From: a virus
IMG/VR virus record: IMGVR_UViG_3300033571_008596
Coordinates: 1 to 24,906 of that record
Direction: 5' to 3' (one strand)
DNA: 24,906 bases
The notes below the pieces were generated by a model. It was not told where the DNA came from and searched no databases. It saw only the letters and a list, made by a program, of their open reading frames with translations. Position 1 is the first letter of the stretch, and each line of letters opens with the position of its first letter. The translations under genes were made by a program, and so were the position numbers. This document shows positions 2 to 23,767 of this stretch, in pieces.

Positions 2-487
2 GCTCCTGTTAAAGATGATGCTCCTGTAGATGGTAAAAAGGTTGCTTCTGGAAAAGCTAAAGCTGAAGAAAAACCAAAAGCAGAAAAAGAACCTAAAGCA
101 AAAAAGGAAAAAGAGGAAAAGAAATCTAAAAGGATTTCAGAAGGATTCGTTCCTGTAACTGAATCAAAAGACAAATCAGTTCAAAAAATGATTTCGGATT
201 TGACTACGGCTACCGGAAAAGATTTGGAAAATTTAAAAGCAGATTTACAGGTACAAGGAATAGATGTCCCTTGGATTTCATTCCTTTCAAAAGGAGATCA
301 AGTAGAATTTGATGCTGCTAAGAATTCACCTTTAGCTGGAACTAAGTTAAAAGGGATTGTTACAGGAATCAGTGACACTGATAAATCTGGAAGAAAATAC
401 TGTAAAGTGAAAGTTGAAGGAAAAGGAACTTTCCAAAAAGCTCAATCTTCAGTTTTCAAAATTGCAAACAATGACTCTGAGAAATAG
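2..487 (+). CDS. C-terminal part of a Lys/Glu/Ala-rich protein (5' end outside window)
   Basis: The reading frame is open from base 2, so the gene begins upstream of the window; 161 C-terminal residues are visible. Residues 11-50 are an Ala/Lys/Glu/Pro-rich, low-complexity and presumably disordered tract (for example KAEEKPKAEKEPKAKKEK). A compact, probably beta-rich domain follows, with SKGDQVEFDAAKNS and a GIVTGISDTDKSGRKYCKVKVEG stretch that resembles small SH3/KOW-like barrels, although this is only an impression. The Met at 188 is internal and should not be taken as the start. A basic tail plus a small barrel would suit a nucleic-acid-binding protein, but that is inference. The gene overlaps the next one by 17 nt. 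I do not recognise the family. Confidence 0.75.
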   Translation, partial: APVKDDAPVDGKKVASGKAKAEEKPKAEKEPKAKKEKEEKKSKRISEGFVPVTESKDKSVQKMISDLTTATGKDLENLKADLQVQGIDVPWISFLSKGDQVEFDAAKNSPLAGTKLKGIVTGISDTDKSGRKYCKVKVEGKGTFQKAQSSVFKIANNDSEK

Positions 488-731
488 ATTTGCCTATGCG
501 TTCGGACTCCTGAAAAAGGAGTCTGATTCGCTTAAGGAAGCTTTGGAGACTATGCCAGTTTTTATAAACAAAAATTTCTCTCCGGAAAACAGAGCCTTAT
601 TGGTTAATCATTTAGTTGACCAATGTCTATTAGATCTAGATTCTGAAAGATCTAAATTACAAAATGAAATCGATCAAAGAAACAAAGCCATCAAGAAAAT
701 CAATACTCATGAGTCAGTCAAAGTCAATTAG
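471..731 (+). CDS. Hypothetical protein, 86 aa, helical
   Basis: This short ORF starts at an ATG inside the 3' end of the preceding gene (17-nt overlap). An in-frame TTG at 414 would lengthen it but deepens the overlap, so the ATG is preferred. The product begins MTLRNRFAYAFGLLKKESD and is predicted mainly helical, with a charged C-terminal stretch (DSERSKLQNEIDQRNKAIKK) that could form a short coiled coil. It has no signal peptide or membrane segment. Its end overlaps the next gene by 23 nt, so translation is probably coupled along this run. No family is recognised. Confidence 0.65.
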   Translation: MTLRNRFAYAFGLLKKESDSLKEALETMPVFINKNFSPENRALLVNHLVDQCLLDLDSERSKLQNEIDQRNKAIKKINTHESVKVN

Positions 732-1176
732 CCAACACGTTGAATACTATTTAGAGGGTTCTCAAATAGTGGAACAAACTATCCGAATGGAATGTGATGG
801 CTGGATGGTCATAACCCACAACGGGTCCGAGATTAATATGCACGAGAGTAGTTTTCTAAAGATGGGTAAACTTTATGAAAAATTAAAAGCTATGCCAAAC
901 TACGACGATGATGTTATCGGGATCGGAAATTCCCAACATCCAGCAAACCAGATAGAAGCTCCGAGTGATTATCCGGACACCATAAAAAAGTCTTTGGATT
1001 ATTACAAAGAACACTCAGACATAAATCCCTTATTAGAAAATTTGGACCAATTAGAAAATCAAATGGTCAAAGGGAAAACTATTATTATAGGAATTATCAA
1101 GGATTTAAGATCTAATGGATTCCAGGACCTGGCAAATTCTTTATGTGTAATAAGAGATCTTTTTAATTATGAATAA
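709..1176 (+). CDS. Hypothetical protein, 155 aa
   Basis: I place the start at the ATG at 709 (MSQSKSISQHVEYYLEGSQ) rather than the in-frame ATG at 664, because the shorter form overlaps the previous gene by only 23 nt, in line with the rest of the operon. The first 60 residues look like a small beta-rich domain (EGSQIVEQTIRMECDGWMVI). An acidic linker with NYDDDV follows, then a helical C-terminal half with LLENLDQLENQMVKGKT. It has no Cys cluster, signal peptide or membrane segment. It overlaps the next gene by 8 nt. The function is unknown. Confidence 0.7.
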   Translation: MSQSKSISQHVEYYLEGSQIVEQTIRMECDGWMVITHNGSEINMHESSFLKMGKLYEKLKAMPNYDDDVIGIGNSQHPANQIEAPSDYPDTIKKSLDYYKEHSDINPLLENLDQLENQMVKGKTIIIGIIKDLRSNGFQDLANSLCVIRDLFNYE

Positions 1177-1435
1177 GGATATAATCATAACAGAGGACGA
1201 TCGTGTCCCTGACGGCTTTAATATCGGTCAGAAATACCATGTTATCTGGGCAGCAAAAGGATGCGTATTCGTTCTAAAGTCTTTCCTTCCTAATTGGATG
1301 GTAGAAATAGAAACTCCTAAAACTAAAAAAGTTCACCTGACTAGTATTTCATCCCTGAGATTAATCAATAAAGATGCTAAACAAAAAGCTATTAAAAGGC
1401 TAAAGGATGCTCAAACCAAACTTAAACTACAGTAG
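1169..1435 (+). CDS. Hypothetical protein, 88 aa
   Basis: This small protein begins MNKDIIITEDDRVPDGFNIG. The middle (KYHVIWAAKGCVFVLKSFLP) looks like alternating beta strands of a small barrel, and the C-terminus is a basic helix (KDAKQKAIKRLKDAQTKLK). It overlaps the upstream gene by 8 nt and the downstream exonuclease gene by 29 nt, so it probably shares their transcript. The strand-then-basic-helix layout would allow nucleic-acid binding, but no specific motif supports this. Confidence 0.65.
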   Translation: MNKDIIITEDDRVPDGFNIGQKYHVIWAAKGCVFVLKSFLPNWMVEIETPKTKKVHLTSISSLRLINKDAKQKAIKRLKDAQTKLKLQ

Positions 1436-2168
1436 AAAAGATTCAATAGTTTATCTGGATGGAAACCCGATTTTGGAATTTGATTCTTATTTTCCAGACT
1501 TCGAAAAATTATCAGAAACAGCAATTGAATACTTAAATAAATATATGTCCCTGTACCCGGACAAAGTTAAAATCTTAGAACCTATGGCGAATAAAATCAT
1601 CAAGATCTTTTATGATGTTGAAACAACAGGATTGAATCACAGAAGACACGGAATACACCAACTATCTGGATTGGTAGAAGTAGATGGAAAAGTTAAAGAA
1701 GAATTTAACTGGTATGTTAAACCAAATCCTAAAGCTGAAGTTGATCTTATGGCTCTGGCTGCATCCGGAACCTCAATAGATGATTTTGATATGTACCCAG
1801 AAATGGAAACAGTTTTCAAAGACTTTAAAAAGATCTTGGATCGATATGTTAATCGATTTGACAAAAAGGAAAAAGCTTGGTTAGTAGGATTTAACAATAG
1901 ATCTTTTGACGATGATTTCCTGAGAGCATGGTTCGAACAGAATGGAGATACTTTCTTTGGATCTTATTTCTGGTCAGATTCATTGGATGTGTTAGTATTA
2001 GCTTCCCAATTCCTTATTCATCAAAGAAAAGATATGCCATCCTTTAAATTGAAAAGGGTTGCTTTAGAATTAGGTATCAAAGTCGATGAATCTAGATTGC
2101 ATGATTCATCTTACGATGTTCAGCTTACGAGGGAAATTTATAACATTGTAACGGATCCAATTTTTTAA
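1407..2168 (+). CDS. DEDDh-family 3'-5' exonuclease (DnaQ-like)
   Basis: This 253-residue protein shows the three exonuclease motifs of the DnaQ/RNase T superfamily: Exo I FYDVETTGL (D70, E72), Exo II VGFNNRSFDDDFL (D168) and Exo III LHDSSYDVQLT (H232, D237). The His five residues before the last Asp marks the DEDDh subgroup. These acids bind two metal ions for 3'-5' hydrolysis of nucleic acid. It may proofread for a phage polymerase, trim DNA ends or act in host nucleic-acid turnover; no polymerase gene is in this window. The exonuclease fold starts near residue 65. The first 60 residues (with IVYLDGNPILEFDSYFP) are an extra segment of unknown role. An internal ATG at codon 60 could make the bare domain. 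The ATG at 1407 has an AAAGG just before it. Confidence 0.88.
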   Translation: MLKPNLNYSRKDSIVYLDGNPILEFDSYFPDFEKLSETAIEYLNKYMSLYPDKVKILEPMANKIIKIFYDVETTGLNHRRHGIHQLSGLVEVDGKVKEEFNWYVKPNPKAEVDLMALAASGTSIDDFDMYPEMETVFKDFKKILDRYVNRFDKKEKAWLVGFNNRSFDDDFLRAWFEQNGDTFFGSYFWSDSLDVLVLASQFLIHQRKDMPSFKLKRVALELGIKVDESRLHDSSYDVQLTREIYNIVTDPIF

Positions 2169-2170
2169 TT

Positions 2171-2491
2171 ATGGACTTTGTAAAAAAACCTTGCAAGCAT
2201 TGTCCTTTCAGAATTGATGTGAAACCTTTTCTCCATCCGGATAGGGCAGAAGAAATTGCTTATTCGACTCAAAATCCTTATATGAATTTTCCATGTCATA
2301 AAACAATAGAACACGATGAAGATACAGGAGAAGGTTTTGAAATAGAAACATCTAAAACTTGTGCAGGATTTTTAACTATGAGAGCTCAACAGGGAGAAGA
2401 AATTCCTGAGGAATTTGAACCGGATTGGGAAGGATGCTACACGGAACCTTTTGAAATGTCTGACGCTTATAGGGAAAAATGGGAAAAATAA
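2171..2491 (+). CDS. DUF6283-like Cys-containing protein, 106 aa
   Basis: The N-terminus has PCKHCPFRIDV, a Cys-x-x-Cys-Pro-Phe-Arg signature like that of the small phage/actinobacterial proteins I know as DUF6283 (the family name is from memory). Further cysteines are C42 (in FPCHKT), C64 (TCAGF) and C89. The spacing C8-C11-C42-C64 would suit a bound metal or iron-sulfur cluster; that is inference, since the family has no established function. The acidic C-terminus ends at a TAA that lies inside the first copy of the 95-bp repeat. The gene starts 2 nt after the exonuclease stop, so the two are surely co-translated. Confidence 0.72.
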   Translation: MDFVKKPCKHCPFRIDVKPFLHPDRAEEIAYSTQNPYMNFPCHKTIEHDEDTGEGFEIETSKTCAGFLTMRAQQGEEIPEEFEPDWEGCYTEPFEMSDAYREKWEK

Positions 2492-2577
2492 TTTCGTTAA
2501 AGTTTGAAAAATATTTTCGTATCTAATTTGGATAATATACTTTTACTCCATCAAACAATAACAAATAGAAATTATGA
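2483..2577 (+). repeat. Direct repeat copy 1 (95 bp, leader/promoter duplication)
   Basis: This segment matches 3272-3366 over 95 bp with one difference (A at 2526, G at 3315). It contains the last nine bases of the DUF6283-like gene (GAAAAATAA including its stop), a promoter candidate, an A-rich 5' leader and the ATG of the following small gene. The offset between copies is 789 bp. Because the nine coding bases make sense only here, copy 1 is probably the source and copy 2 the duplicate. Confidence 0.93.
2503..2545 (+). promoter_or_regulatory. Candidate promoter within repeat copy 1
   Basis: Two overlapping readings fit the Bacteroidota promoter pattern (TTTG, then about 17-20 nt, then TAnnTTTG). 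One is TTTG at 2503-2506 and TAATTTG at 2524-2530 with a 17-nt spacer, the -7 box being one base short. The other is TACTTTTA at 2538-2545 with TTTC 19 nt upstream. Either would start a transcript 20-45 nt before the ATG at 2574. Exact duplication of the segment ahead of another gene supports a regulatory role. Confidence 0.5.
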
Positions 2578-2780
2578 AAATAAAAGTAGAATTCATCCAG
2601 GACAAAACAGGCAAATTATTATTTTCTGCTAATGTGAATACTGAATTTGGTTTAAAATCAGTTATGGAATCTATTCAAAAGTCTAATGGAGGATTAATCC
2701 AAGAAGAAGATTCTTGTATAATCAAATCGACTTTCCAGAATAAAAAAGACATATTTATTAATTTTGAAATTTTATCTTAA
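2574..2780 (+). CDS. Hypothetical protein, 68 aa
   Basis: First gene behind repeat copy 1; the ATG is preceded by the A-rich leader AACAAATAGAAATT and no Shine-Dalgarno sequence. The product (MKIKVEFIQDKTGKLLFSAN at its start) reads as a small alpha/beta protein with alternating strands and one amphipathic helix. It has no Cys cluster, signal peptide or membrane segment. It is separated by 4 nt from the next small gene. The function is unknown. Its conserved leader suggests it is expressed in the same phase as the winged-helix gene at 3363. Confidence 0.65.
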   Translation: MKIKVEFIQDKTGKLLFSANVNTEFGLKSVMESIQKSNGGLIQEEDSCIIKSTFQNKKDIFINFEILS

Positions 2781-2784
2781 TAAA

Positions 2785-3003
2785 ATGGGAACTTTTACAC
2801 AAATCGGGATATCTGAAACTATATCTAGTAAAGACAAATCAATCAAAATACAAATAGTAAAATTCAAAAAAGATAATACTGAAAGAATATTTTTTGCTCC
2901 TAGATTAGAGGGCAAGGCCTTAAATAGAACAATGTTCAGTAGACTTTATGATGCTAGGAATTTAGCTAAAAATTACATAAACTATAAAAAATCTAACCAA
3001 TAA
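2785..3003 (+). CDS. Hypothetical basic protein, 72 aa
   Basis: The ATG at 2785 is chosen over an upstream in-frame TTG at 2764, because it lies 4 nt after the previous stop in the pattern TAATAAAATG typical of translational coupling. The product starts MGTFTQIGISETISSKDKSI and ends in a Lys/Asn-rich helix (ARNLAKNYINYKKSNQ). It is small and strongly basic, with alternating strands in the first half. It may bind nucleic acid, but no motif is recognisable. Confidence 0.6.
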   Translation: MGTFTQIGISETISSKDKSIKIQIVKFKKDNTERIFFAPRLEGKALNRTMFSRLYDARNLAKNYINYKKSNQ

Positions 3004-3015
3004 TAAATCCGAACC

Positions 3016-3255
3016 ATGAACTCAAACAGAAAATTTAAAATCACTCACTTTGATCGTGAGGATGTAAAAGAATTTACTATCGGATTAGATGTTCTAATAG
3101 GATTGAAAAGATCTGATTTTACTGGAACAGAAATGCAATACAGTCTAAATGAAAGACTGGACGAAATATTAGATCTGAGAGAATGGGATAGAATGACTTT
3201 CTTAGAAGATCGATCACAACCAAATAGCTTATCCGTACTAATCAGAATTCAATAG
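3016..3255 (+). CDS. Hypothetical protein, 79 aa
   Basis: A short ORF 12 nt after the previous stop, beginning MNSNRKFKITHFDREDVKEF. It mixes short strands with charged helices (LNERLDEILDLREWDRMTF) and has no Cys, signal peptide or membrane segment. It is the last gene of the 789-bp unit bracketed by the two leader copies. The function is unknown. Codon use and base composition match its neighbours. Confidence 0.6.
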   Translation: MNSNRKFKITHFDREDVKEFTIGLDVLIGLKRSDFTGTEMQYSLNERLDEILDLREWDRMTFLEDRSQPNSLSVLIRIQ

Positions 3256-3271
3256 GTCTTAAAAAGTATTC

Positions 3272-3366
3272 GAAAAATAATTTCGTTAAAGTTTGAAAAA
3301 TATTTTCGTATCTAGTTTGGATAATATACTTTTACTCCATCAAACAATAACAAATAGAAATTATGA
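3272..3366 (+). repeat. Direct repeat copy 2 (95 bp, leader/promoter duplication)
   Basis: Second copy of the 2483-2577 segment with one substitution (G at 3315). It carries an out-of-context GAAAAATAA that is the coding end of the DUF6283-like gene in copy 1. It then has the same promoter candidate (TTTG at 3292-3295, TAGTTTG at 3313-3319, TACTTTTA at 3327-3334), the same A-rich leader, and the ATG of the winged-helix gene at 3363. Confidence 0.93.
3292..3334 (+). promoter_or_regulatory. Candidate promoter within repeat copy 2
   Basis: This is the duplicate of the element at 2503-2545. The single difference between copies changes TAATTTG to TAGTTTG in the possible -7 box, which could alter strength without removing the fixed bases. 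It lies in the 107-nt gap between 3255 and 3363, one of the few intergenic gaps in this region, and would drive the winged-helix gene and those after it. Confidence 0.5.
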
Positions 3367-3593
3367 CTTCAACTATCAATTTAACAGAATTAGAATTACA
3401 AGTAATTAATCTTTTAAAACAAGGAGACCATTTCGAGGATTATCCTACTGAATCAATAGGGAATTTAGTTGACGATACCAGATTGAATGCAAAAGTTTTA
3501 AGAGGAGTTTTAAGTAGCTTAATTCAAAAAGGATTAGTGGAAACAGGAGAATTCCCAAATGGAATGACAGCTTTTCACTATGTAGGGAAATAA
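3363..3593 (+). CDS. Small winged-helix DNA-binding protein, 76 aa
   Basis: The sequence follows a MarR-like winged-helix plan. A first helix (LTELELQVINLLKQG) is followed by a second helix near IGNLVDDT, a recognition-like helix (AKVLRGVLSSLIQKGLVE) and a beta wing (TGEFPNGMTAFHYVGK). The IxxLVxxTxLxxKxLRGxLSSLxxKGLV spacing is typical of transcription regulators that use a bare wing domain. It has no partner domain and is probably a dimer. It sits directly behind repeat copy 2, so it may regulate the duplicated promoters; that is inference from position only. Confidence 0.65.
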   Translation: MTSTINLTELELQVINLLKQGDHFEDYPTESIGNLVDDTRLNAKVLRGVLSSLIQKGLVETGEFPNGMTAFHYVGK

Positions 3594-3616
3594 ACCAATT
3601 AAATAAATTTTTTAAA

Positions 3617-4069
3617 ATGAAAAAATCAATCTTATTAATGCTGATGCTTACCGGGATGGTAAGCTCAGCTCAATTAAAATTCAACGAATCAGAATTCGTA
3701 AGTGTTTCAGTAGTTTCTAATCCAGAAGGATTTTGGGACTCAAACAAGATGTCAACCTCTTTCGAATTACAATATGACGCTCCTCGGGTATACGTCAGAG
3801 CTGTAGTCAAAAAAGGATTCGAATATTTTGACTGGTCCGGAACAATAGGAACCACAATCCAGAATAACAAAATCCGTATTTACTCAGGAGTTAAAATTGG
3901 GACAGTAATCATCGATCGAAATCACTACGCATTAACTGGGATCGAATCCGGAATAGATTTTTTGAACTGCAGCAGATGGTCAATTGGGCCTAGAGTTTCC
4001 TTTGATTATGTAGCCGGACATTCTAACAGATTTGAATCGGGATTGAAATTTACCTATAAGATAAACTAA
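3617..4069 (+). CDS. Exported, probably outer-membrane beta-rich protein, 150 aa
   Basis: Residues 1-18 form a clear signal peptide (MKKSILLMLMLTGMVSSA) with cleavage expected before Q19, the Ala|Gln junction common in Bacteroidota. The mature part alternates polar and hydrophobic residues (NNKIRIYSGVKIGTVIID; FESGLKFTYKI) and ends in aromatic/aliphatic strands, as small outer-membrane beta-barrels do. A phage-encoded secreted protein of this kind could alter the host surface, for instance to block superinfection, or act in lysis. Neither role is shown by the sequence. The gene is 23 nt after the winged-helix gene and 2 nt before a two-helix membrane protein. It resembles a cell gene recruited by the phage. 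Confidence 0.7.
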   Translation: MKKSILLMLMLTGMVSSAQLKFNESEFVSVSVVSNPEGFWDSNKMSTSFELQYDAPRVYVRAVVKKGFEYFDWSGTIGTTIQNNKIRIYSGVKIGTVIIDRNHYALTGIESGIDFLNCSRWSIGPRVSFDYVAGHSNRFESGLKFTYKIN

Positions 4070-4071
4070 CT

Positions 4072-4272
4072 ATGAGAATCTTAATCTTATTTTTAGTAAT
4101 GAATGGAATCCTCTTTGCTCTTCAGATTGGACTTCTTATTTGGTCATTCAGAGCAAATGAATATAGAACTCATAAAAGAATTTTAAAGCTGAACGAAGCT
4201 TTGAAATATATTTGGATTTTCTCTATTATATCTATGACCATTTTAATCCTCGTATTTAAACCTTTTAATTAG
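4072..4272 (+). CDS. Small membrane protein with two transmembrane helices, 66 aa
   Basis: Residues 1-26 (ILILFLVMNGILFALQIGLL core) and 46-63 (YIWIFSIISMTILILVF) are two hydrophobic helices joined by a basic, probably cytoplasmic loop (RTHKRILKLNE). The size and hairpin layout would fit a two-helix holin or another inner-membrane effector. However, no endolysin or spanin is nearby and the region looks early or accessory, so holin is only one option. The gene starts 2 nt after the exported beta-rich protein, suggesting the two are made together and act at the envelope. Confidence 0.68.
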   Translation: MRILILFLVMNGILFALQIGLLIWSFRANEYRTHKRILKLNEALKYIWIFSIISMTILILVFKPFN

Positions 4273-4278
4273 ATCAAT

Positions 4279-4563
4279 ATGAAATATGGAGAATTAATTA
4301 ATCGGGAAGCCTGGGTGCTAATTTGCATCCATACGGATTGGAATGGATTCAATCGGGATTTTCTGACTGACTTACAAATAGAACACGGTTTGTTTATTGG
4401 AACTATTAATACTTCTTCCAATGATGCTTTCCTGGTCAGTAATCTAAAGAAAGGAAATTCTAAGATTGAATTCCTTTTATATCACGAAGGAGTTTTACAA
4501 TCTAGAACTCAAGCAGACAATTGCAACTATTTAGAAACTTTGTTATCTGAGTCAATTAAATAA
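4279..4563 (+). CDS. Hypothetical protein, 94 aa
   Basis: Begins MKYGELINREAWVLICIHTD, with mixed alpha/beta character and a C-terminal helix (NCNYLETLLSESIK). It has no signal peptide; the hydrophobic WVLICIHTD stretch is too short for a membrane span. It starts 6 nt after the two-helix membrane protein and ends 5 nt before the DUF2786-like gene, so it belongs to the same operon. No family is recognised. Confidence 0.63.
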   Translation: MKYGELINREAWVLICIHTDWNGFNRDFLTDLQIEHGLFIGTINTSSNDAFLVSNLKKGNSKIEFLLYHEGVLQSRTQADNCNYLETLLSESIK

Positions 4564-4568
4564 AGGTT

Positions 4569-5399
4569 ATGAAAGAAAACAGAATCCTATCTAAAATCAG
4601 AAAGTTATTAGCTAAAGCAAAAGATCCCGCTTCTTCTGAAAATGAAGTAGAGATCTTTATGAAGGCAGCTCAAAAATTAATGATGGAATATAATTTGCAA
4701 GAAGCGGATATAGAAATCCATCCGAGTGATATAAACAAAGAAGTTGTATTTTCGGACCTTTGGAAAGCTTTTAGATATAAATCCGCTAATTATGAATGGG
4801 AACTTTTAGACATGATTGCTCAGTTCCACAATTGTAGAATTTTCCACGGGATCGAATATGATTTCAATGCAAGTTTTGACACTTGGAGAGATACTAAAAA
4901 AATCAGATTGTCTATAGTAGGAACTTCAGAGAATAGAGAAATAGTAAAAGAGTTGTATGATTCATGTGTTGAAAAATTTCTTCTATTAGCATCCTCTAGA
5001 TATAAAGAATATCAGCTTAAGAAAAGAGCTGAAATTTTAAAAGGATTCGAATCTATGGGATTAGGGACAAAAGGGTTTGATGTACCGACTTTGGAGAAAA
5101 TGAAACTCATGACTTCTAAGCCAACTTTTATTACATCCTATTTGATGGGAACTATTGAAGGAGTTAGGGACTATTTAGAAAAACAAAAGTCTGAGATTTT
5201 AATGTTGGAAGCTGATAGAAATCAATGGGGCCTGATTGTAAAAAAGCATGATGAATTGATTGACTCTAGAATTCCTGAATTATTTGACCATGATATAAAA
5301 AAGAGGAATATAGGGAACGGGATTCCATATAGTAAAGAAGCTTATGAAGAAGGAATTCAAGATGGATCGATAAATCCGGGAACAAAAATGATTGATTAA
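4569..5399 (+). CDS. DUF2786-domain protein, 276 aa
   Basis: The N-terminus matches the DUF2786 pattern well: ILSKIRKLLAKAKDPASSEN, then EVEIFMKAAQKLMMEYNLQE (residues about 5-45), a helical module seen in many phage and bacterial proteins of unknown role. Residues 60-150 form a second region ending in IVGTSENREIVKELYDSCVE, which resembles the domain that usually follows DUF2786. The C-terminal third is helical and charged. No catalytic motif is visible. It is often carried by phages in early regions, but I know of no established function. A modest GG-containing stretch precedes the ATG (AAAGGTTATG). Confidence 0.8.
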   Translation: MKENRILSKIRKLLAKAKDPASSENEVEIFMKAAQKLMMEYNLQEADIEIHPSDINKEVVFSDLWKAFRYKSANYEWELLDMIAQFHNCRIFHGIEYDFNASFDTWRDTKKIRLSIVGTSENREIVKELYDSCVEKFLLLASSRYKEYQLKKRAEILKGFESMGLGTKGFDVPTLEKMKLMTSKPTFITSYLMGTIEGVRDYLEKQKSEILMLEADRNQWGLIVKKHDELIDSRIPELFDHDIKKRNIGNGIPYSKEAYEEGIQDGSINPGTKMID

Positions 5400-5415
5400 T
5401 TTACAAGTTAAAAAT

Positions 5416-5649
5416 ATGAAGCGAGTGTACGAAATACTAGGAATCATTTTGGAGGAAATGATTTTCAATCCTGATGCTCCGGCTTTCACTATCGAGAAGA
5501 GAGTGAGAATCCTGCACCAGGGAAATATCATAGATCGATTTGAGTTCGAATGGACTGAGATCTTTTTACAAGGACGTCCTGAAGCTCAATCAGCTAACAG
5601 AACAGACTTAGAGGAATTAATATCAACAGCTAGAAGATTGGAGGTTTAA
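5416..5649 (+). CDS. Hypothetical protein, 77 aa
   Basis: I choose the ATG at 5416 (MKRVYEILGIILEEMIFNPD) over an in-frame TTG at 5392 that would overlap the previous gene; the gap is then 16 nt. The product looks like a small alpha/beta domain with central strands (FTIEKRVRILHQGN; DRFEFEWTEIFLQG) and a C-terminal acidic helix. It ends 1 nt before the next gene. No family is recognised. Confidence 0.6.
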   Translation: MKRVYEILGIILEEMIFNPDAPAFTIEKRVRILHQGNIIDRFEFEWTEIFLQGRPEAQSANRTDLEELISTARRLEV

Positions 5650-5650
5650 A

Positions 5651-5962
5651 ATGCAAGGTAAATATTTAATTACAACGGATAACTATTTTTTCGGACCTGA
5701 TGGAAGACAATACAGAGCCGTATGGGGCAATGTTTCTGTTTTCGAAGACAATAAGGTCCTAGGAATAAAAACGAACATCAGAGCGACTAATTGGTATGTC
5801 AAAGTTGGATCTGAAGAGAATCACGTCATTGTAGCCGGATGTCAAATCCATTACGCTACAAGATGTGAAGAGAGACCTGAAACTACTTACACTGAACATA
5901 CAATTGAGGATTCCGTAGAAAAGACAATTCTAAGGCCCGATACAATTTATATAGCTGAGTAA
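5651..5962 (+). CDS. Hypothetical beta-rich protein, 103 aa
   Basis: Begins MQGKYLITTDNYFFGPDGRQ and continues with strand-rich segments (YRAVWGNVSVFEDN; NWYVKVGSEENHVIVAGCQI). The GPDGRQYRAVWG turn and the ATNWYVKVG strand suggest a compact barrel. The gene begins 1 nt after the preceding stop and ends 2 nt before the next gene. It carries two Cys (near CQIHYATRC) that could pair or bind metal. Small proteins of this look are common in Bacteroidota phages, but I cannot name a family. Confidence 0.63.
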   Translation: MQGKYLITTDNYFFGPDGRQYRAVWGNVSVFEDNKVLGIKTNIRATNWYVKVGSEENHVIVAGCQIHYATRCEERPETTYTEHTIEDSVEKTILRPDTIYIAE

Positions 5963-5964
5963 CC

Positions 5965-6393
5965 ATGGATCAAATCAAAAAGCAAGTTTGCAGTTTATAT
6001 GCGGCGAAATTTTTCAGAGAAAAAGGACTTTGCAATCAAAGTTTGTTTTATTATGTCCTCAATTGGAAAGGTCCTAGAGGAAATGATATTGAGGACGGAG
6101 AACACATTGTACCATCTTGGGAGAAACATCTAACTAAGCTAAAAGGGCGTGAGCGTGGTTCGGAGATCGAATTTTTACCGGCTTACACCCTGGTTGAATT
6201 GAATGCTTTTAGTTTGCCCGGAGGGGAACATAAAACCATAGAAAAGCAATGTAAGTTCTTAATTAAACAATTTGATGAAGTTGAGGAAAATATGATTTTA
6301 GGTCCAGCTTATAATAGTAAGATTCATGTGAGTTACTTGAATGATAGATACAATAAATTCTTTGGAATTTATGAAGAGTCAACAGAATTGTAA
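5965..6393 (+). CDS. Hypothetical protein, 142 aa, next to the origin-like region
   Basis: Begins MDQIKKQVCSLYAAKFFREK. The middle part has GEHIVPSWEKHLTKLKGRER and the C-terminal part KTIEKQCKFLIKQFDEVEEN. It is mostly helical and mixed in charge, with no signal peptide, membrane span or recognised motif. It is the last gene before the 546-nt gene-free region, and its stop codon lies inside the first TGTAAACAAT box. Proteins beside an origin often bind it, so an initiator or accessory role is possible; the sequence itself does not show this. Confidence 0.65.
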   Translation: MDQIKKQVCSLYAAKFFREKGLCNQSLFYYVLNWKGPRGNDIEDGEHIVPSWEKHLTKLKGRERGSEIEFLPAYTLVELNAFSLPGGEHKTIEKQCKFLIKQFDEVEENMILGPAYNSKIHVSYLNDRYNKFFGIYEESTEL

Positions 6394-6683
6394 ACAATGA
6401 TACACAATGTACACAATCCATTGTTTACAAAGAAACCCTTATTATATATGGTCAAACCATGATTATACACAATGTAAACAATAATAAACCTATTTAATTA
6501 GATAGGGATAAATATAGAGAAATAATACATATATTTTTCTTATATATCACGTTATAGTGTTATAGGAAACCTTGTTTCTATTGTGTCATTGTGTACAGAA
6601 TGTAATTTTTGATGTGTAAAACCTTGATATTGAATTGATTAAGATGTACACAATAAAAAATGATCCAAAAATCATTGTTTACA
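6388..6683 (+). other. Candidate replication origin: iteron-like boxes around an AT-rich core
   Basis: Seven exact copies of TGTA[AC]ACAAT lie here: + strand at 6389-6398, 6408-6417, 6473-6482 and 6645-6654; - strand at 6420-6429, 6588-6597 and 6674-6683. Near matches are at 6399-6408, 6464-6473 and 6580-6589. TTATACACA at 6463-6471 matches the DnaA box consensus TTATNCACA. The boxes flank an AT-rich stretch (about 6483-6575) suited to strand opening. TTGTAAACAATG (6388-6399) and CATTGTTTACAA (6419-6430) form a perfect 12-bp inverted repeat. Clustered boxes of both orientations plus an AT-rich core is the usual layout of a theta-type origin. A multi-site operator for a repressor is the main alternative. 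Confidence 0.6.
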
Positions 6684-6705
6684 TGATTTGGATTTAATAG
6701 ATTTG
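6675..6705 (+). promoter_or_regulatory. Candidate Bacteroidota-type promoter before the leader RNA
   Basis: TAGATTTG at 6698-6705 matches TAnnTTTG exactly, with TTGT at 6675-6678 placed 19 nt upstream as a possible -33 box. A transcript would start near 6712. The -33 region lies within the last origin box (6674-6683), so a protein bound there could block or modulate it. GATTTGGA also occurs twice (6685-6692 and 6700-6707). Confidence 0.42.
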
Positions 6706-6916: not shown

Positions 6917-6939
6917 GTCCAACATCAAAGGGATTGATT

Positions 6940-7395
6940 ATGACTTACTCAGAAAATGAAAAAGAAGCTATCTTCGAGGACATCCTCGATGAGATTATAG
7001 ACGGTAGAGCTATCAGGAATATTTTGAAAGATAAAGGAATGCCGAGGGCCTTATCCTTCTTTCAATGGTTGAAAGCAAGGCCAGAATGGCAAGAGCAATA
7101 CTCGTATGCGTGTGAACTTCGTCAGGAACTTCTATTTGAGAAGATGTTAGAGATTGCGGAGAACCCGGAAACAGGCGAAGAAATAACCATGGATCACAAT
7201 GGAACCAAAATCGTTCAGAAGGATATGATTCAGCATCGAAATTTAAAAGTTAATACTTTGAAATGGCAACTTGCTAAATTGAATCCTAAGAAATATGGCG
7301 ATAAGGTCGACCTTACAACGGATGGTGAAAAATTACCTAGCGATCAAAAAGTAACTTGGAACTTCATAGATGCCAAAAAACCAAAAGCTGAATAA
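6940..7395 (+). CDS. Terminase small subunit (TerS)
   Basis: This 151-aa protein starts at the ATG at 6940; an in-frame TTG six bases earlier is less likely. The first half is an HTH-like DNA-binding region, with IIDGRAIRNILKDKGMPRAL, then SFFQWLKARPEWQEQYSYAC. The second half carries NLKVNTLKWQLAKLNPKKYG, close to the Rx(I/V)xTxKWxxxKLxPKKYGDK hallmark of Sf6-type small terminases. TerS binds the packaging site as a ring and hands DNA to TerL. The stop overlaps the TerL start (TAATG), the usual TerS-TerL arrangement. The candidate leader RNA and terminator lie just upstream, where a pac or cos site would also be expected. Confidence 0.9.
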   Translation: MTYSENEKEAIFEDILDEIIDGRAIRNILKDKGMPRALSFFQWLKARPEWQEQYSYACELRQELLFEKMLEIAENPETGEEITMDHNGTKIVQKDMIQHRNLKVNTLKWQLAKLNPKKYGDKVDLTTDGEKLPSDQKVTWNFIDAKKPKAE

Positions 7396-8759
7396 TGAAC
7401 GTACTGATTGAATATCAACCTTTATACTTTGATGATTATTACCAAGCTGATTGTTGGGGCGGAAGAGCCGGGGCAAGATCTTACTCTTTAACTCAACACG
7501 CTTTATTTGGTTTGATCAACGATTCAAAATTCCGGGCATTCTTTTTAAGAGAAGTACATTCAACTATTTATTCGTCTATGTGGCAAGATCTTAAGGACCG
7601 GATATCTGAGTACGAAGAAATTCATGGAGTTGATCTAAGTAAGGTCATTGAAATCTCTGACAATAAGAATGGAGAGAATTATGCTAAGAACAAAAAGACT
7701 GGTGCAAGTATAACCACAAAGGGTTTCAGGATTTCATCAGGTAACCAAACGGCAAACTTAAAATCCTTGGCCGGTGCTACACATTTGTACATCGATGAAA
7801 CTGAGGAGGTGGCAGAATCAGAATTCAGAAAGTTAAAGTTATCCCTTAGAAAGAAGGATGTCCAAATTAAAATCCTGAGAGCTTTCAACCCTCCATTTGC
7901 TGGTCATTGGATTTGGAAAGATTATGATTTGACCAAGATCGAAACTGAGGAATTAATTCAATTGGTATATGAGTCCTCAGATCTTCCTTTGAAAGAGGTA
8001 AGGGAAATGGCTCTTAGGAACAATAAGACTTATTATAAAGCTGAAATAAAAAAGGGAAAGGAAAAATACATTTCCATCCAAACAAATGCCTTAAACAACT
8101 TCTCAAATCTGAACGATCAAATCTGGGAGGAATATAGATCTATCCTGAATGACGACTTCCACTATTACTGTGTGAACATCCTTGGACTTATTCCTAATGA
8201 AGAGGGAGACTTAGTTTATACTGATTTTGATGTGACTGTGAATGGAACTACTAGGAAAGCAAAACCTGGAGATGTCCTTCATATTGGGATGGACTTCAAT
8301 ATTACTAAGATGAGTGCTGTAGTCCATGTGGTGGAAGGATTAAATAAGTATGCTGTTGCCGAGTTTAGTAATTTGTTTGACACTTACCAAATGTGTGAAG
8401 CCATCAGATCCAAATTCCCTGGTCATAAAATAGTAATCTATCCGGATGCTTCAGGACAAAATAGGAACACCAGCGGACGTAGTGACGTTGACATTATCAA
8501 ATCATTTGGTTATTCGGTTAGAGTGCCTAATAAGAATGGTTATGTACGTGACAGAATCAATATGGTCAATACGGCATTCAGGAAAAAGAACTATTTTGTT
8601 AATCCTTTTGAATGTCCGGATTACACAACAGCTTTACAAAAGCTTAAGTTCAAAAATGGTGAGCCAGATAAATCTTCAGGATTAGATCACATTGTGGATG
8701 CTGGAGGATATTTCATAACCAACCAACCAAAAGTAATAACCGGCTCGTCGAGCCTTTAA
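7395..8759 (+). CDS. Terminase large subunit (TerL), packaging ATPase-nuclease
   Basis: A 454-aa protein of normal TerL length with both domains. ATPase: Walker A-like GGRAGARS (residues 22-29), Walker B HLYIDE (D134, E135) and a coupling motif near FNPP (residues 164-167). Nuclease (RNase H fold): acidic residues D300 in HIGMDFNITK, D351 in IYPDASG and D435 in DHIVDAGG. It translocates DNA into the prohead through the portal and cuts at the end of packaging. The Walker A is unusual: the common GGRGSGKS is replaced by a form with Arg instead of Lys. The gene is intact, and all other motifs are present, so it is probably active. It is most like the PBSX/Terminase_3 group. Confidence 0.93.
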   Translation: MNVLIEYQPLYFDDYYQADCWGGRAGARSYSLTQHALFGLINDSKFRAFFLREVHSTIYSSMWQDLKDRISEYEEIHGVDLSKVIEISDNKNGENYAKNKKTGASITTKGFRISSGNQTANLKSLAGATHLYIDETEEVAESEFRKLKLSLRKKDVQIKILRAFNPPFAGHWIWKDYDLTKIETEELIQLVYESSDLPLKEVREMALRNNKTYYKAEIKKGKEKYISIQTNALNNFSNLNDQIWEEYRSILNDDFHYYCVNILGLIPNEEGDLVYTDFDVTVNGTTRKAKPGDVLHIGMDFNITKMSAVVHVVEGLNKYAVAEFSNLFDTYQMCEAIRSKFPGHKIVIYPDASGQNRNTSGRSDVDIIKSFGYSVRVPNKNGYVRDRINMVNTAFRKKNYFVNPFECPDYTTALQKLKFKNGEPDKSSGLDHIVDAGGYFITNQPKVITGSSSL

Positions 8760-11773: not shown

Positions 11774-14478
11774 GTTACATACTCTACTTAAATTCGAAAG
11801 AGGTTGACATGGCTGGAATGAGTGAGATCAAACTTACTAAGCAAGTCAATGACATTGCTAATCTTTCTACTAGACAAACCAATTTTTCTAAACAGTTAAA
11901 GATTAGAAGAACTGCAGTCAATGAAGAAATCTTGGAATTCCTTGGAACGGTTGGATCCGAAACGGATATTCCGTATAGAAAAATAGACGCAGATCTTTTG
12001 AATGCTGACAGTGGTGACTTTGTCATTTATAAGGGTTGGGCAGTCATACTATCTAGAGATGAAGAATTCTATACGATAGCTATTTACGATGGCGTGATTG
12101 ATTGGTATAAAGCTATGGACAATGTCCCTATGTCTAATTTAGATTTGACTGAGATTGACCATTTCAGAACCATACCAACTATCCAAAATTCGATCTTGAA
12201 TCTATTACCCTATAAATATATAATAGCTGATTTCAATGGAGCTGCAACCAAAGTAGGTTATCCTAATATAAATGCTGACTATTTAATCCCATCAGTGAAT
12301 GTGGAATGGCTTTGGATTCAGATCTTTGAATATTTGGGATTCACTTATTCGGGAGATGTTTTTTCAACTCCAGATTTCAAAGATTTATGGCTTACATATC
12401 CTAAGGGAACTACGGTTGGATTGGATGTGACAACTCCTTTATTGGATGTTACATCTTCTCACAACTTGAATTACAATCCGGGTCCTTTAGTCAGAATTGA
12501 TTTGGATGCTTTCCTTTTAACTGCTGGATCTATTCTTTTGGATAGTTCAGGGATCGAATATTATGTTTGTCCTTCTGATGGACAAATTAGAGTAAATCAT
12601 ACTCAAGCAATCAGTGCAACTTATATTGATGGAGGGCAAGGTCAAGAGCTAAATATGATTACCTTAAATACTAGATTGGCAGTTGAGAATAGAAATACGA
12701 ATACTATCTATTTGATTAATCAGGGCCAGCAATTATATATTCCAGTTAACGAGGGAGATGAGATCTATTTTTATGCAGCACCTACCTATCAATCGAATTA
12801 CGGAGGTTGGCCTGATTATGTTTTTGGAGAAGCTAAATTTGTACTAGATTTATACCAAGGAGAAAAGATTGACTTTAAAGGAGCTTTCGAAAAATTATTG
12901 ATTAAAGATTTCATTAATGAAGTTCTTTGGATTTTATGCTTAACTCCTTTTAAAGACCCTTACTCAAAAAATGTTATGTTTAAAACATTTGAAGAAAGAG
13001 TTATGGGAACGGATGCTATTGATATGTCCGACAAATTTGTTAAGCTTAAAAATGAAAAATACAAATATAGTAATTATGCAAAATTGAATTATTTAAGACA
13101 TAAATATAATGCAAGTAATGCTAATTACAATGATGGAGCTTTTGTCATTCAGGATGAAAATCTAAAAGATTCTACTACTGTTATCCAATCTAAATTCTTT
13201 ACTCCTGAATTCGAAAAGGAAGTAGAGATTGATGGCGGTAGATTTTTAAGAACTTATAAATTATGGAATAAGGAATCTAACGACGGAGTTGGTAATCCAA
13301 CTAAGTACAAAGCTTTAGACAATAGATTCTATTTCATAAAATACACGGATGTAACTTTGACGAATCCTCTAACCATAGAAAGTGAATCTTTGGGAGACTC
13401 AGCTGTTTTCAATAGTTTACCTCTGGAAAATTATACAGGATTGACATTTAAGGAAATTCAAAAGAAAGCTTATTCTAAATTAGGATATGTTTTGAACAAG
13501 GTCAAATTGGATGTTCTTCAATTCATGTTGAATCGTCAAGATTACATGGAGTTAGATTTTACTAAAAAATTATATGTTGAACAATTAGGAGCTTCTTTTT
13601 TACTGAATAAGATTAGTGATTTTGAACCTAATAAAGTAACAGATTTGGAAGTTTTAAAAATCAGTCAATCCGATTTAATTTCGGGGGATGATGGCGGAGG
13701 GGGAGTAGATCCAAACGATCCAATCATTCTCACATTTGACTTGACCTTGAATTCTGTTGTTCCAACCAACTATAACTTAGACATAACTTCTGAATTATAT
13801 TTGGGAGTAGCTTTAGGCTCTGGGGAAACAATAAGCCAAATAGAAGTACAAGGATATTCGGGAAATTTATATGCCGATCAATTTGGGGACGATTTGGCTC
13901 AGGGATTAGGAGTTTTACCTTATGGGAATAATTTTATTTTACATAGTTTAAATATTGACAACACCTATGACTATTTAATTACTCCTAGGACTTTTGCTTT
14001 AGTTTATCATGTGATAATGGATAATAGTATTACGGGAACATCATACCATAAATACACTATTATTAAAAATATAACTATTAACTATTCGGAAGCTTGGGGA
14101 GGACAATTTGCTTTCAATGTAACCAATGCAGGTCAGGACACAAAAATAATGACGGAGGATTTCAAACAAAATGCTCCTCTTAGACCGAATGAAATTTATT
14201 CTCACATTGTTCCTCTGGATTTTGTTTATGAGCCTGGAACTACTAGTGAATTTTGGGCTTCTCAAAATGGTCCTTTTACTATAGGAATTAATTCTTATTT
14301 TGCGGACTGGTTATTTATTGAACCCCATAAAGTAGATTTTAGTTATTTTCCAGCTCCTGGAACCGTATATGGTTTGGAGTTTTATTTCGAATTATGGGCT
14401 TATGACACTGTTGCTATGACTTATAGATTAGTAAAAGATTTCATAGGATTTCAAGTAACATTAACTTATAATAATTAA
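11770..14478 (+). CDS. Large tail-tip/tail-associated protein, 902 aa
   Basis: The N-terminus (MSYILYLNSKEVDMAGMSEI, then LTKQVNDIANLSTRQTNFSK) is a recognisable module of Bacteroidota phage tail proteins, with a LTKQxNDIxxLxxRQxNFS core. Residues about 1-630 are a strand-rich body. An Asp/Gly linker (SGDDGGGGVDPNDP, near residues 637-650) then separates a C-terminal beta-rich domain of about 250 residues, suited to receptor or sugar binding. Its position just before the tape measure and after a Dit-like gene suggests the tail tip or baseplate hub. A lytic or peptidase motif is not evident. The functional name is inferred; coding potential is certain. Confidence 0.7.
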   Translation: MSYILYLNSKEVDMAGMSEIKLTKQVNDIANLSTRQTNFSKQLKIRRTAVNEEILEFLGTVGSETDIPYRKIDADLLNADSGDFVIYKGWAVILSRDEEFYTIAIYDGVIDWYKAMDNVPMSNLDLTEIDHFRTIPTIQNSILNLLPYKYIIADFNGAATKVGYPNINADYLIPSVNVEWLWIQIFEYLGFTYSGDVFSTPDFKDLWLTYPKGTTVGLDVTTPLLDVTSSHNLNYNPGPLVRIDLDAFLLTAGSILLDSSGIEYYVCPSDGQIRVNHTQAISATYIDGGQGQELNMITLNTRLAVENRNTNTIYLINQGQQLYIPVNEGDEIYFYAAPTYQSNYGGWPDYVFGEAKFVLDLYQGEKIDFKGAFEKLLIKDFINEVLWILCLTPFKDPYSKNVMFKTFEERVMGTDAIDMSDKFVKLKNEKYKYSNYAKLNYLRHKYNASNANYNDGAFVIQDENLKDSTTVIQSKFFTPEFEKEVEIDGGRFLRTYKLWNKESNDGVGNPTKYKALDNRFYFIKYTDVTLTNPLTIESESLGDSAVFNSLPLENYTGLTFKEIQKKAYSKLGYVLNKVKLDVLQFMLNRQDYMELDFTKKLYVEQLGASFLLNKISDFEPNKVTDLEVLKISQSDLISGDDGGGGVDPNDPIILTFDLTLNSVVPTNYNLDITSELYLGVALGSGETISQIEVQGYSGNLYADQFGDDLAQGLGVLPYGNNFILHSLNIDNTYDYLITPRTFALVYHVIMDNSITGTSYHKYTIIKNITINYSEAWGGQFAFNVTNAGQDTKIMTEDFKQNAPLRPNEIYSHIVPLDFVYEPGTTSEFWASQNGPFTIGINSYFADWLFIEPHKVDFSYFPAPGTVYGLEFYFELWAYDTVAMTYRLVKDFIGFQVTLTYNN

Positions 14479-20900: not shown

Positions 20901-21494
20901 ATGCCAAGTACTTGCGGAGCAATCATAGACGACTTAGTTTATGATTGCAACAACAAATCGACTGGAGGATTACAACAGGAAATGAAACTTGTAAATCTAT
21001 CCGATATTAAAGACAATCTTGCTCAGTTTACAATTGAGGACGATGCTACAAACCATACGATTTCTGCATTCACAGGAACAGCAGCAAACTTAAATGGAGT
21101 AACCGTAGAAGGTATTCCAAATAAGCAATTGCTTAAAGCTGGATTTGCTACTACAGAAACGGATTTTGGAACTTTTGTTACTCACAATGTGGATGTATGG
21201 AGTCAATCTGTTACTGAGAAATCAATGTTGTTTTTGAAATCATTAGTCAATGGAGCTGAGGTAGTAGCTTTTGTGAAAAACAAAACTGGACCTAATAGCC
21301 AAGACGAAACTTACTGGGTTTATGGATTTAACAACGGTTTGAAATTATCTGATACTACTTTCAACTCTGCTGAAAATAGTGGATCTTTCATTATTCCAAT
21401 GACATCCAAAGAACCAGATTTGGAACCAACACTTCCTTACAGATTGTTGATCACAGATTTAGCTACAACTAAAACTTTCTTTGATTCATTATAA
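20901..21494 (+). CDS. Probable tail tube (major tail) protein, 197 aa
   Basis: Begins MPSTCGAIIDDLVYDCNNKS, then TGGLQQEMKLVNLSDIKDNL. The Cys...Asp-Cys...GGL...LVNLSDI pattern is one I associate with abundant structural proteins following the capsid gene in Bacteroidota phages. The rest is strand-rich with Gly/Thr/Asn turns (ETYWVYGFNNGLKLSDTTFN) and ends in a DLATTKTFF strand, as tail-tube beta-sandwiches do. Codons look like those of the capsid gene, suggesting strong expression. It could instead be a capsid decoration protein; the size and fold impression favour the tube. Confidence 0.5.
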   Translation: MPSTCGAIIDDLVYDCNNKSTGGLQQEMKLVNLSDIKDNLAQFTIEDDATNHTISAFTGTAANLNGVTVEGIPNKQLLKAGFATTETDFGTFVTHNVDVWSQSVTEKSMLFLKSLVNGAEVVAFVKNKTGPNSQDETYWVYGFNNGLKLSDTTFNSAENSGSFIIPMTSKEPDLEPTLPYRLLITDLATTKTFFDSL

Positions 21495-21495
21495 T

Positions 21496-22317
21496 ATGGA
21501 TTTGACTAAGGAACAATTAGCTACAAAAAAAGGGTCCGATGTTAGACACAACGGACCCCTATTTGATCTGTTCAAAAAGTACATAATCGAAGATTGGGGA
21601 CACATCCCTGCTGGTTGTTTTGGTTGTGACTTTAATAAGCACTTTCAAAAATGGTCTCAACCCTATTTGAAAAAAACAAAATCAGAAATTAAAAAAAGAG
21701 AAATCATGCAAAGAGATTATATCCTAAAAGATGAGAACTATAAAACCTTTTTTAAAGGTGAAGTTCTAAGCAAAAATAGTTCTTCTTCTGAGTGGGCAGA
21801 ATTCGTAAAAGAAAATCCAGCTCAAGAAGAAAAAAGAAGAAACTTATTTTCTAAATTACCATCATCACTTACATCGGATGCTGAAAAAGCTATTGAAGAT
21901 GAAAAAGTTGAAAAAGACGAATTAGAAAAAAAGCCAGAATCAGTACTCCCTGCGGATGTTAGAATTGATCCAGAGACTGGAATGATTATTCACGTTGTTA
22001 CTGAAAAAACTTTAGAAGACAATCCGGGGCTTGCAGAAGAGGGAGTTCAAGTTGGAGACGAAATCTTGATCGATCCAAATGAAACAGAGGAAACTGAAAC
22101 AGAGGAAACTGAAACAGAGGAAACTGAAACAGAGGAAACTGAAACAGAAGAAACTGAAACAGAAGAAACTGAAACAGAAGAAACTGAAACAGAAGAAACT
22201 GAAACAGATTCAGCTGCTGAAGATTTCCAAGACGATTTAATGGGAGACAATACTCCTAATGGAGAAGTCAAAAAAGAAGATAAGCCAAAAGCAAAAAAGG
22301 CTTCGGCTAAAAAATAA
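21496..22317 (+). CDS. Acidic late protein with eight 15-bp tandem repeats, 273 aa
   Basis: The ATG at 21496 is chosen over a TTG at 21481 inside the previous gene. Residues 1-70 look folded, with HIPAGCFGCDFNKHFQKWSQ. A segment near residues 155-190 (VLPADVRIDPETGMIIHVVT) may form a small strand domain. Residues about 196-238 are a Thr/Glu repeat from eight 15-bp units. The C-terminus is a Lys-rich tail (KKEDKPKAKKASAKK). An acidic run next to a basic tail suggests a disordered linker. It lies between the tail-tube gene and the terminator, so a virion or assembly role is likely, but I do not recognise the family. Confidence 0.68.
   Translation: MDLTKEQLATKKGSDVRHNGPLFDLFKKYIIEDWGHIPAGCFGCDFNKHFQKWSQPYLKKTKSEIKKREIMQRDYILKDENYKTFFKGEVLSKNSSSSEWAEFVKENPAQEEKRRNLFSKLPSSLTSDAEKAIEDEKVEKDELEKKPESVLPADVRIDPETGMIIHVVTEKTLEDNPGLAEEGVQVGDEILIDPNETEETETEETETEETETEETETEETETEETETEETETEETETDSAAEDFQDDLMGDNTPNGEVKKEDKPKAKKASAKK
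22081..22208 (+). repeat. Coding tandem repeat, 15-bp unit, eight copies in two blocks
   Basis: GAAACAGAGGAAACT occurs four times (22081-22140). GAAACAGAAGAAACT then occurs four times (22141-22200), followed by a partial GAAACAGA. Each unit encodes Glu-Thr-Glu-Glu-Thr; the two blocks differ only by a silent G/A change (GAG versus GAA). The block structure points to repeat growth by slippage or unequal exchange after the silent change. Confidence 0.97.
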
Positions 22318-22387: not shown

Positions 22388-23767
22388 ATGGAGCAGTCTA
22401 ATCAAAAATCGAAATTCAAAAAATTTGTCATCGATATAGTTGAACTATTCGATCGATCAATTACATTCGACGAGCAAGACAAAATCTATAAAAATGATTT
22501 GGATAACTTATATCCAAATCGAATGGAAAACTTAGAAAGAAATTCTAAGACAGCCATTAGTTGTTCTAGAAAACTGGGACAATATATTTTTGGAAAAGGA
22601 TTCCAAAATCCAGATTATGAAATGAAATCTAGATCTGGAGAAACAATCGATTTGAATGGGGCTTTATCTATGGTTACTGAAAGCCTTAGAACTCATAGAG
22701 GAGTTTACATCCATTTGAATTATGATATTGAAAATAAAGTTAACTATTTTGATGTTCTAGATTTTAAGAAATGTAGAGTTTCAAAAGTGGATCACTTAGG
22801 TTATCCGGGAGTAATCATATATAAAGACTGGTCAAAAAAATCTTCATTGTTTGACCTATCAAAAAATAAAGACGTTCAATGGTTTTACCCATTCAATAAA
22901 AAGAATATCAATGCCCAAAGATTGGCGGATGTTCAAAATCCAAAAAAGAAAGTACAAACTGAGGAATTGATTCGACAATACAGAGGTCAAGTTTTATTCT
23001 TTAGTCTAGATAAAACTAGTATTTATCCTTATGCTTGGTTATCTGGCCAAGCTGTTTATGATGCTGATTCAGAATTCAGATTAGCCTTATACAGAAACAA
23101 TTCTATTAGAAAAGGTTTTCAGGACAAAACAATGTTTATCCTTAATGGTTTTGATAATTCTACTAAAAAAGATTTTGACAAAACAAGTAAGGAATGGTTA
23201 GGAGCAGAAAATGCTGGTAGTGTTTTCACATTCTCAACTCCAGAATTTGTCGAGGATCCAAATAAATTGATTGTTCCTGTTCAGCTTAAATCTTCGTATG
23301 ATTCTAAGAAATTTGAATTGGATGAAAAAGCTTTTGAAGATTCAATAGCTAAATGTTATTTGGACATTCCAAAAGTTTTAATCAATGATAGAGAAGGAGG
23401 AGTTTTTGGATCTTCAGGTAGTGCAATTGAGGAAGCTCAAAAATTATACTCAAATGGAACTGGATTCCTAAGATCAAAAATAGAAGACGTTTTCTTTGAT
23501 ATTTTTGAAATAGAAGGCAATGAAATAATTCCATTAGTTTCTGATAGCGAAATAGATACCTCTGACCAAATCAGGCTTAAGTCTCAAGCAGAATTAAAAG
23601 CATCAGTAGGAGGAGTAACAACTCTTATGGATCTTGTAAAAGCTGTAAACGCTAAAGAGATTCCGGTTGAGAATGCTGTCGAAATAGTAAAAGAGATTTA
23701 CGGAATAAGTGAAGAACTAGCTAACAAAATGTTAACCATTAATAATCCGGGAAATGGCAAAATGTAA
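22388..23767 (+). CDS. Portal protein (probable), 459 aa
   Basis: The length fits a portal and it is the only protein here of suitable size and composition. The start (MEQSNQKSKFKKFVIDIVEL) leads to YKNDLDNLYPNRMENLERNS and CSRKLGQYIFGKGFQNPDYE. The core alternates strands and helices (HRGVYIHLNYDIENKVNYFD; VLDFKKCRVSKVDHLG). The late segment VFGSSGSAIEEAQKLYSNGT and a C-terminal helical region resemble portal stem and crown regions. The portal is the head vertex through which DNA enters. It lies behind its own terminator and promoter candidate, and downstream of the capsid gene, contrary to the usual order. It overlaps the next gene by 14 nt. Confidence 0.65.
   Translation: MEQSNQKSKFKKFVIDIVELFDRSITFDEQDKIYKNDLDNLYPNRMENLERNSKTAISCSRKLGQYIFGKGFQNPDYEMKSRSGETIDLNGALSMVTESLRTHRGVYIHLNYDIENKVNYFDVLDFKKCRVSKVDHLGYPGVIIYKDWSKKSSLFDLSKNKDVQWFYPFNKKNINAQRLADVQNPKKKVQTEELIRQYRGQVLFFSLDKTSIYPYAWLSGQAVYDADSEFRLALYRNNSIRKGFQDKTMFILNGFDNSTKKDFDKTSKEWLGAENAGSVFTFSTPEFVEDPNKLIVPVQLKSSYDSKKFELDEKAFEDSIAKCYLDIPKVLINDREGGVFGSSGSAIEEAQKLYSNGTGFLRSKIEDVFFDIFEIEGNEIIPLVSDSEIDTSDQIRLKSQAELKASVGGVTTLMDLVKAVNAKEIPVENAVEIVKEIYGISEELANKMLTINNPGNGKM

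Follow-up and report, generated by a model that had tools for sequence, protein, structure and literature searches.

In SaPI origins, iterons of the two orientations surround an AT-rich stretch; the Rep/origin modules of S. aureus SaPIs were reportedly treated by Ubeda in 2007. Phage SPP1 possesses two origins in one genome, oriL and oriR, which share boxes for the initiator G38P, with oriL lying within gene 38, and lambda-type origins consist of direct-repeat iterons inside the initiator gene. The multiple short iterons of SaPIs are recognised by a self-loading Rep helicase via its C-terminal domain, and the origins lie directly 3' of the initiator gene (PMC7581432). In the SCCmec system of Cch2 and the CCPol-MP primase, the initiator helicase binds short direct repeats downstream of its gene, also via a C-terminal domain, and the system includes an A-family polymerase and an ssDNA-binding partner (PMC7581432). 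PolA-SSB primases have been described for mobile elements (PMC10061031). For VapE phages, no origin is described in the literature searched, whose coverage was partial. Here, sequence comparisons lead us to consider it highly probable that the array at 6389-6683 of the locus described below is a phage replication origin, the iterons of which are bound by the C-terminal winged-helix domain of a phage VapE/PriRep1-type primase-helicase.

The window, that is, the whole stretch of 24,906 nucleotides that was analysed, is the IMG/VR virus record IMGVR_UViG_3300033571_008596. This 24.9-kb record is incomplete, and VapE is not in it, the early genes of the phage falling outside the record. The features at and around the array are as follows.

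5965..6393, + strand: last early-module gene, overlapping the first iteron at its 3' end; the related phage genome G001 has a homologue (52.5% over 80 aa)
6388..6430, no strand: 12-bp perfect inverted repeat, TTGTAAACAATG (6388-6399) and CATTGTTTACAA (6419-6430), comprising the first box and the inverted box
6389..6482, no strand: left half-array; exact boxes 6389(+), 6408(+), 6420(-) and 6473(+), degenerate boxes 6399(+) GATACACAAT and 6464(+) TATACACAAT
6463..6473, + strand: 'DnaA box' TTATACACA of the original prediction (TTATACACA itself at 6463-6471), read here as a degenerate iteron at 6464-6473
6483..6579, no strand: AT-rich core between the half-arrays, 78% AT; presumed duplex-unwinding region
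6580..6683, no strand: right half-array; exact boxes 6588(-), 6645(+) and 6674(-), degenerate boxes 6580(-) and 6592(+)
6675..6705, + strand: Bacteroidota-type promoter match, TTG at 6675 and TAGATTTG at 6698-6705; overlaps the last iteron
6943..7395, + strand: terS, terminase small subunit of the Sf6 type (PF20901, E=1.9e-30); first late-module gene
7395..8759, + strand: terL, terminase large subunit (Terminase_3 / Terminase_6C)

The original prediction, made from the letters alone, had proposed an iteron cluster with an AT-rich core as a candidate phage origin. Its seven exact TGTAMACAAT boxes were found again on recounting, and a count over both strands of the full record gave zero further exact copies outside the array, as had been stated. 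When up to one mismatch is allowed, the window holds 12 boxes, where 100 shuffles gave 5.6 on average and never more than 10, and the claim that the boxes are more frequent than expected by chance is borne out by 300 Markov shuffles, in which any 300-bp stretch held at most one exact box. The 12-bp perfect inverted repeat that includes the first box is present, and the AT-rich stretch flanked by boxes is real: nearest-neighbour duplex stability, computed for 24,806 windows of 100 bp, reaches its minimum in the one that begins at 6464, which places the least stable 100 bp of the record inside the array. The description of the surrounding DNA as gene-free applies to most of the array, which is intergenic, but not to the first box, which overlaps the last codons of ORF 5965-6393. 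A change in cumulative GC skew at the array, which had been suggested as a check, was not seen; the skew rises steadily and is uninformative because all genes run in one direction.

Overall, the array consists of short iterons in both orientations around an AT-rich region, as in a SaPI/PriRep1-type iteron origin. With > and < denoting boxes in the two orientations and numbers the spacings, its left half has the order > > > < 44 > 9 >, which matches the left half of the conserved arrays in other phages, and the window conforms to the geometry of this family once the degenerate boxes are counted (inverted box 6420, +44 to 6464, +9 to 6473).

Downstream of the array, the terS ORF is listed from a TTG at 6934, with an ATG at 6943. 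The match at 6675..6705 is a possible late promoter, judged by eye against the consensus TTTG...TAnnTTTG, and in locus L008 the last box before terS is overlapped by a comparable promoter-like match. Between 6706 and 6890 of the window lies a long terS leader with a hairpin followed by a T-run (GAGACCC..GGGTCTTTTTT); such a leader is absent from L008, where terS begins close to the last box. An RNA element in this leader was considered and rejected, since its folding is no better than that of shuffles (z=-0.64) and an Rfam search of the region gave no match. Elsewhere in the window, a low-complexity repeat at 22079-22270 encodes EETETEETET within ORF 21481-22317, and a G001 ORF (L097:4141-4818) contains a different low-complexity stretch, AGDTGAGDAG. 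A small ORF of 76 aa at 3363-3593 has a weak DnaD_N match (E=0.003), below the curated cut-off.

In a search of related phages, the two closest relatives, G040 (TerL 76%) and G001 (TerS 66%, TerL 65%), proved to have a box array ahead of terS in the position seen here, and Croceibacter phage P2559Y, an isolated phage of a flavobacterial host, also has one just upstream of terS. A nucleotide search of the array region against the phage collection gave short weak matches only. Similar arrays occur in about 100 fetched loci. A scan of viral contigs with a three-box pattern returned 83 stretches, most of which have 5-12 GTAAACAA boxes in 400 bp, and many of which follow the mirror plan > 19 > 11 < 44 > 9 > [AT-rich core, ~100-130 bp] < 9 < 44 > 11 < 19 <. 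About 70 of the viral loci that matched the pattern, which vary in base composition, share this mirror-symmetric geometry and its recurring spacings; since the scan selected three neighbouring boxes, the order of the left half is partly built in, while the length of the core, the mirror-image half and the spacings of 44 and 9 lie outside the scan pattern. AT-rich cores of ~90-130 bp are common in these relatives, and some arrays have an alternative spacing of 53-58 instead of 44-46, about one helical turn longer.

Two arrays per genome are present in G001, G046, G050, G059, G080 and P2559Y. The second array of G001 lies about 21 kb from terS, between the lysis and early modules. In P2559Y (KC688701), whose record is circular, a GTAAACAA array at 42880-43094 immediately precedes terS (240). 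Its second array, which is degenerate, falls within 23622-23951, between the lysis and early genes; a stretch of the AT-rich core is common to both, and neither an origin nor a repeat is annotated in those parts of the deposited record that were viewed. Two pattern matches in genome contigs were set aside as chance or unrelated, namely L192, inside a predicted coding region, and L196, beside an apparent ParM-type gene. In Lysinibacillus endophyticus (NZ_RBZN01000063.1), a GTAAACAA array with similar 9/45/21 spacing (L197:2484-2772) adjoins a Rep_3 gene (PF01051); this genome gave no PF05272 match, and the array is perhaps a convergent or borrowed origin. The array of an Oscillospiraceae MAG (L194:531-724) is nearly identical to that of the Oscillospiraceae locus L195, but the 8 kb fetched contain no VapE gene, and this array is possibly an orphan origin on another element.

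The VapE family (PF05272) was found in 40 of 50 array-bearing records versus two of 38 terminase-matched controls, which share the terminase and were not selected for arrays; these counts include related phages and are therefore not independent events. The GTAAACAA pair is absent from the two VapE-containing controls (G018 and G025). Counting against the association, several array-bearing records of 32-33 kb (G052, G054 and G077) have no PF05272 match, and no array was found in G089 and G090, which are fragments with a Bacteroidota-type VapE. In eight records (G045, G053, G057, G058, G060, G067, G074 and G076), the array lies directly 3' of vapE, starting about 290-380 bp beyond the VapE domain, and the same arrangement is seen in the Alkaliphilus prophage L193 and in L195. 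In G040, the array is about 9.3 kb from the VapE domain and is followed by terS, and the window array is likewise not directly downstream of an initiator gene and is followed by terS. VapE is present in G040, G001 and P2559Y, the P2559Y protein being 68.5% identical to that of G040, and from these relatives we infer that the phage in the window also encodes such a VapE.

A further sample was drawn by VapE and not by the array, through a VapE-alignment search that yielded 80 loci. If five or more copies of one 7-mer within 450 bp 3' of the gene are counted as an array, 46 of 55 more distant, mostly non-Bacteroidota VapE genes have one, against 18 of 1395 control windows. The repeats differ by phage, and the spacing > 9 > 20 < 12 < 45 > 9 > ~100 < 9 < recurs. 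For the 23 closer members, which are of the Bacteroidota type, this 3' stretch is free of arrays in every case (0/23), and many of them have arrays elsewhere in the record.

The best match of the G001 VapE is PriRep1 with dsDNA (7pds), both by sequence (E=6e-74) and by predicted fold (TM 0.84 by target), a match confined to the helicase part (query residues 369-721 in the sequence comparison). In the G001 model, the C-terminus comprises helices and then a beta hairpin. The early module of G001 combines DNA_pol_A (an A-family polymerase), an Enc34-type ssDNA-binding protein and VapE, and the polymerase and ssDNA-binding pair is reminiscent of the PolA-SSB primases of mobile elements (PMC10061031).

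Three prophage loci of the C. difficile type (L291, L294 and L296) are informative on the C-terminal end of VapE and the iteron. They are 97-98% identical over 11-15 kb, L294 being 99.2% identical to Clostridioides phage phiCDKH02 over 5 kb, and their VapE proteins differ by nine to fifteen residues, all at 769-793 at the C-terminal end save 225, 228 and 631, which set L294 apart. The region matching 769-793 is the beta hairpin after the helices in the G001 model. Over the last vapE codons and the first part of the array, DNA identity falls to about 59-72% and is back to 99-100% within about 400 bp, and the iterons switch as a set, a locus having eight TGTCTACA, eight TGTCAACA or nine TGTTACCA. 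At 12200-12900 of each locus, the vapE end and all adjacent iterons are replaced as a unit. Among Bacteroidota phages, those with GTAAACAA boxes have VapE tails of the type STKNFxxYGKQKYY, and two phages with GAAACAA boxes (G091 and G095) have the tail ST[KR]TFKHYGKQKFY. We take the concerted change of the tail and all iterons in the prophages, together with the tail/iteron correlation in Bacteroidota phages, as an indirect sign that the VapE wing probably reads the iteron.

The original prediction had left open whether host DnaA or a phage initiator acts at the array. A host DnaA-dependent origin might be suggested by the one TTATACACA in the array, from which the iteron differs at few positions. 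However, TTATNCACA has only two exact matches in the whole window, at 6463 and 14858, so that the array contains no cluster of DnaA boxes, and its single match coincides with the iteron at 6464-6473, 44 bp past the inverted box 6420 and 9 bp before 6473. Being at the family's standard 44/9 spacing, this site is best read as a degenerate iteron and not as a DnaA box. Moreover, the iteron varies between phages, even between prophages that are otherwise almost the same, and a conserved host DnaA could not keep pace with such variation. Hence, recruitment of host DnaA is unsupported and we reject such an origin as having next to no probability, and the evidence favours the alternative of a phage initiator. 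A lambda-type origin bound by an O protein does not fit either, the array being intergenic with repeats in both orientations.

The position of the arrays invites two other explanations. The boxes could be operators that control a late promoter upstream of terS and, for the second arrays of relatives, an early promoter; the arrays indeed lie at module junctions (upstream of terS, and at the lysis/early boundary in G001 and P2559Y), the last box overlaps a promoter-like motif in both the window and L008, and the second G001 array is adjoined by a possible helix-turn-helix gene, for which no Pfam family matched. Yet the same architecture is found directly 3' of vapE in many phages, the iterons switch with the VapE tail while the flanking DNA is nearly identical, and an operator has no need of mirror symmetry around the least stable DNA, which together make this explanation unlikely. 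Still less probable is a packaging initiation site (pac/cos) bound by TerS, whose gene follows the array. Lambda cosB and SPP1 pac, both near their terS genes, offer a precedent, and in most loci with TerS near the array, a distance of 44-110 bp separates the array from the terS match downstream of it. However, the other TerS relatives checked (34-50% identity) lack an array upstream of terS, so that conservation upstream of related terS genes fails, arrays adjoin vapE with no terminase match nearby, the second G001 array is about 21 kb off terS, and the identity of the box follows VapE in the cases examined.

The origin that the original prediction had proposed, with VapE as the protein that binds it, as favoured here, is supported by the symmetric architecture, the VapE association and the co-variation of tail and iteron; from these we infer VapE binding, core melting, helicase loading and origin activity at the array. 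The VapE primase-helicase of the phage, a putative self-loading replicative helicase like PriRep1 and SaPI Rep, would use its C-terminal winged-helix domain to bind the iterons TGTAAACAAT/TGTACACAAT, which are set in two roughly mirror-image half-arrays. Two opposed VapE assemblies probably form, one per half-array, which would melt the AT-rich core between them, load as helicases and move outwards, leading to bidirectional replication, with priming by the N-terminal part of VapE or by the phage PolA/SSB pair. As the array is not next to vapE, we describe it as a variant with a relocated origin that would work like the SaPI/PriRep1-type class; relocation away from the initiator gene, to the boundary of early and late genes that precedes terS, with a second copy in several relatives, is the best explanation of its position. 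The two arrays per genome are plausibly two origins, although one of them could be regulatory; given this doubling and the promoter-like motif that overlaps the last box, the arrays may serve in regulation as well as being origins.

A broader hypothesis, which we put forward tentatively and with the balance somewhat against it, is that VapE phages represent a large family of initiator-origin pairs with recurring geometry and a freely changing iteron, in many cases G-NNN-ACA (a visual summary of the VapE-drawn sample that some iterons do not fit), read by the VapE C-terminal wing. Wing and iterons would switch as a unit, presumably because satellites or competing phages exert selection. In the Bacteroidota branch, including the phage in the window, the origin would have separated from the gene and, in several members, been duplicated so that each module junction has one; it may also connect binding of the initiator with late transcription of terS.

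The array provides a concrete candidate origin, open to experiment, for a wide range of little-studied phages, and half-arrays with spacings of 9, 44-46 and ~100-130 bp provide a simple signature for origins of VapE/PriRep1-type replicons in metagenomes. The natural variants, near-identical helicases with differing C-terminal ends and iterons, are a ready test of origin recognition by helicases and of the evolution of its specificity. Among the known systems, SPP1 resembles G001 and P2559Y in having two origins where these have two arrays, but its initiator G38P is unrelated and the boxes differ. G001 combines DNA_pol_A, an Enc34-type ssDNA-binding protein and VapE much as the Cch2 system combines its components, whereas Cch2 belongs to the D5/Primase_Cterm class and has three 5-nt iterons (PMC7581432), and the arrays described here have about 5-12 longer iterons in a recurring mirror geometry. 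Closest by sequence and fold to the G001 VapE is PriRep1, in the structure with dsDNA (PDB 7pds, chain 'Similar to D. nodosus vapE'). The SaPI system is similar in its multiple short iterons and in the candidate self-loading Rep-type helicase with C-terminal recognition; in contrast to SaPIs, the array here belongs to tailed phages of Bacteroidota, has the iteron TGTAMACAAT, is sometimes present in two copies in relatives, and is far from the initiator gene, being placed ahead of terS where early and late genes meet.
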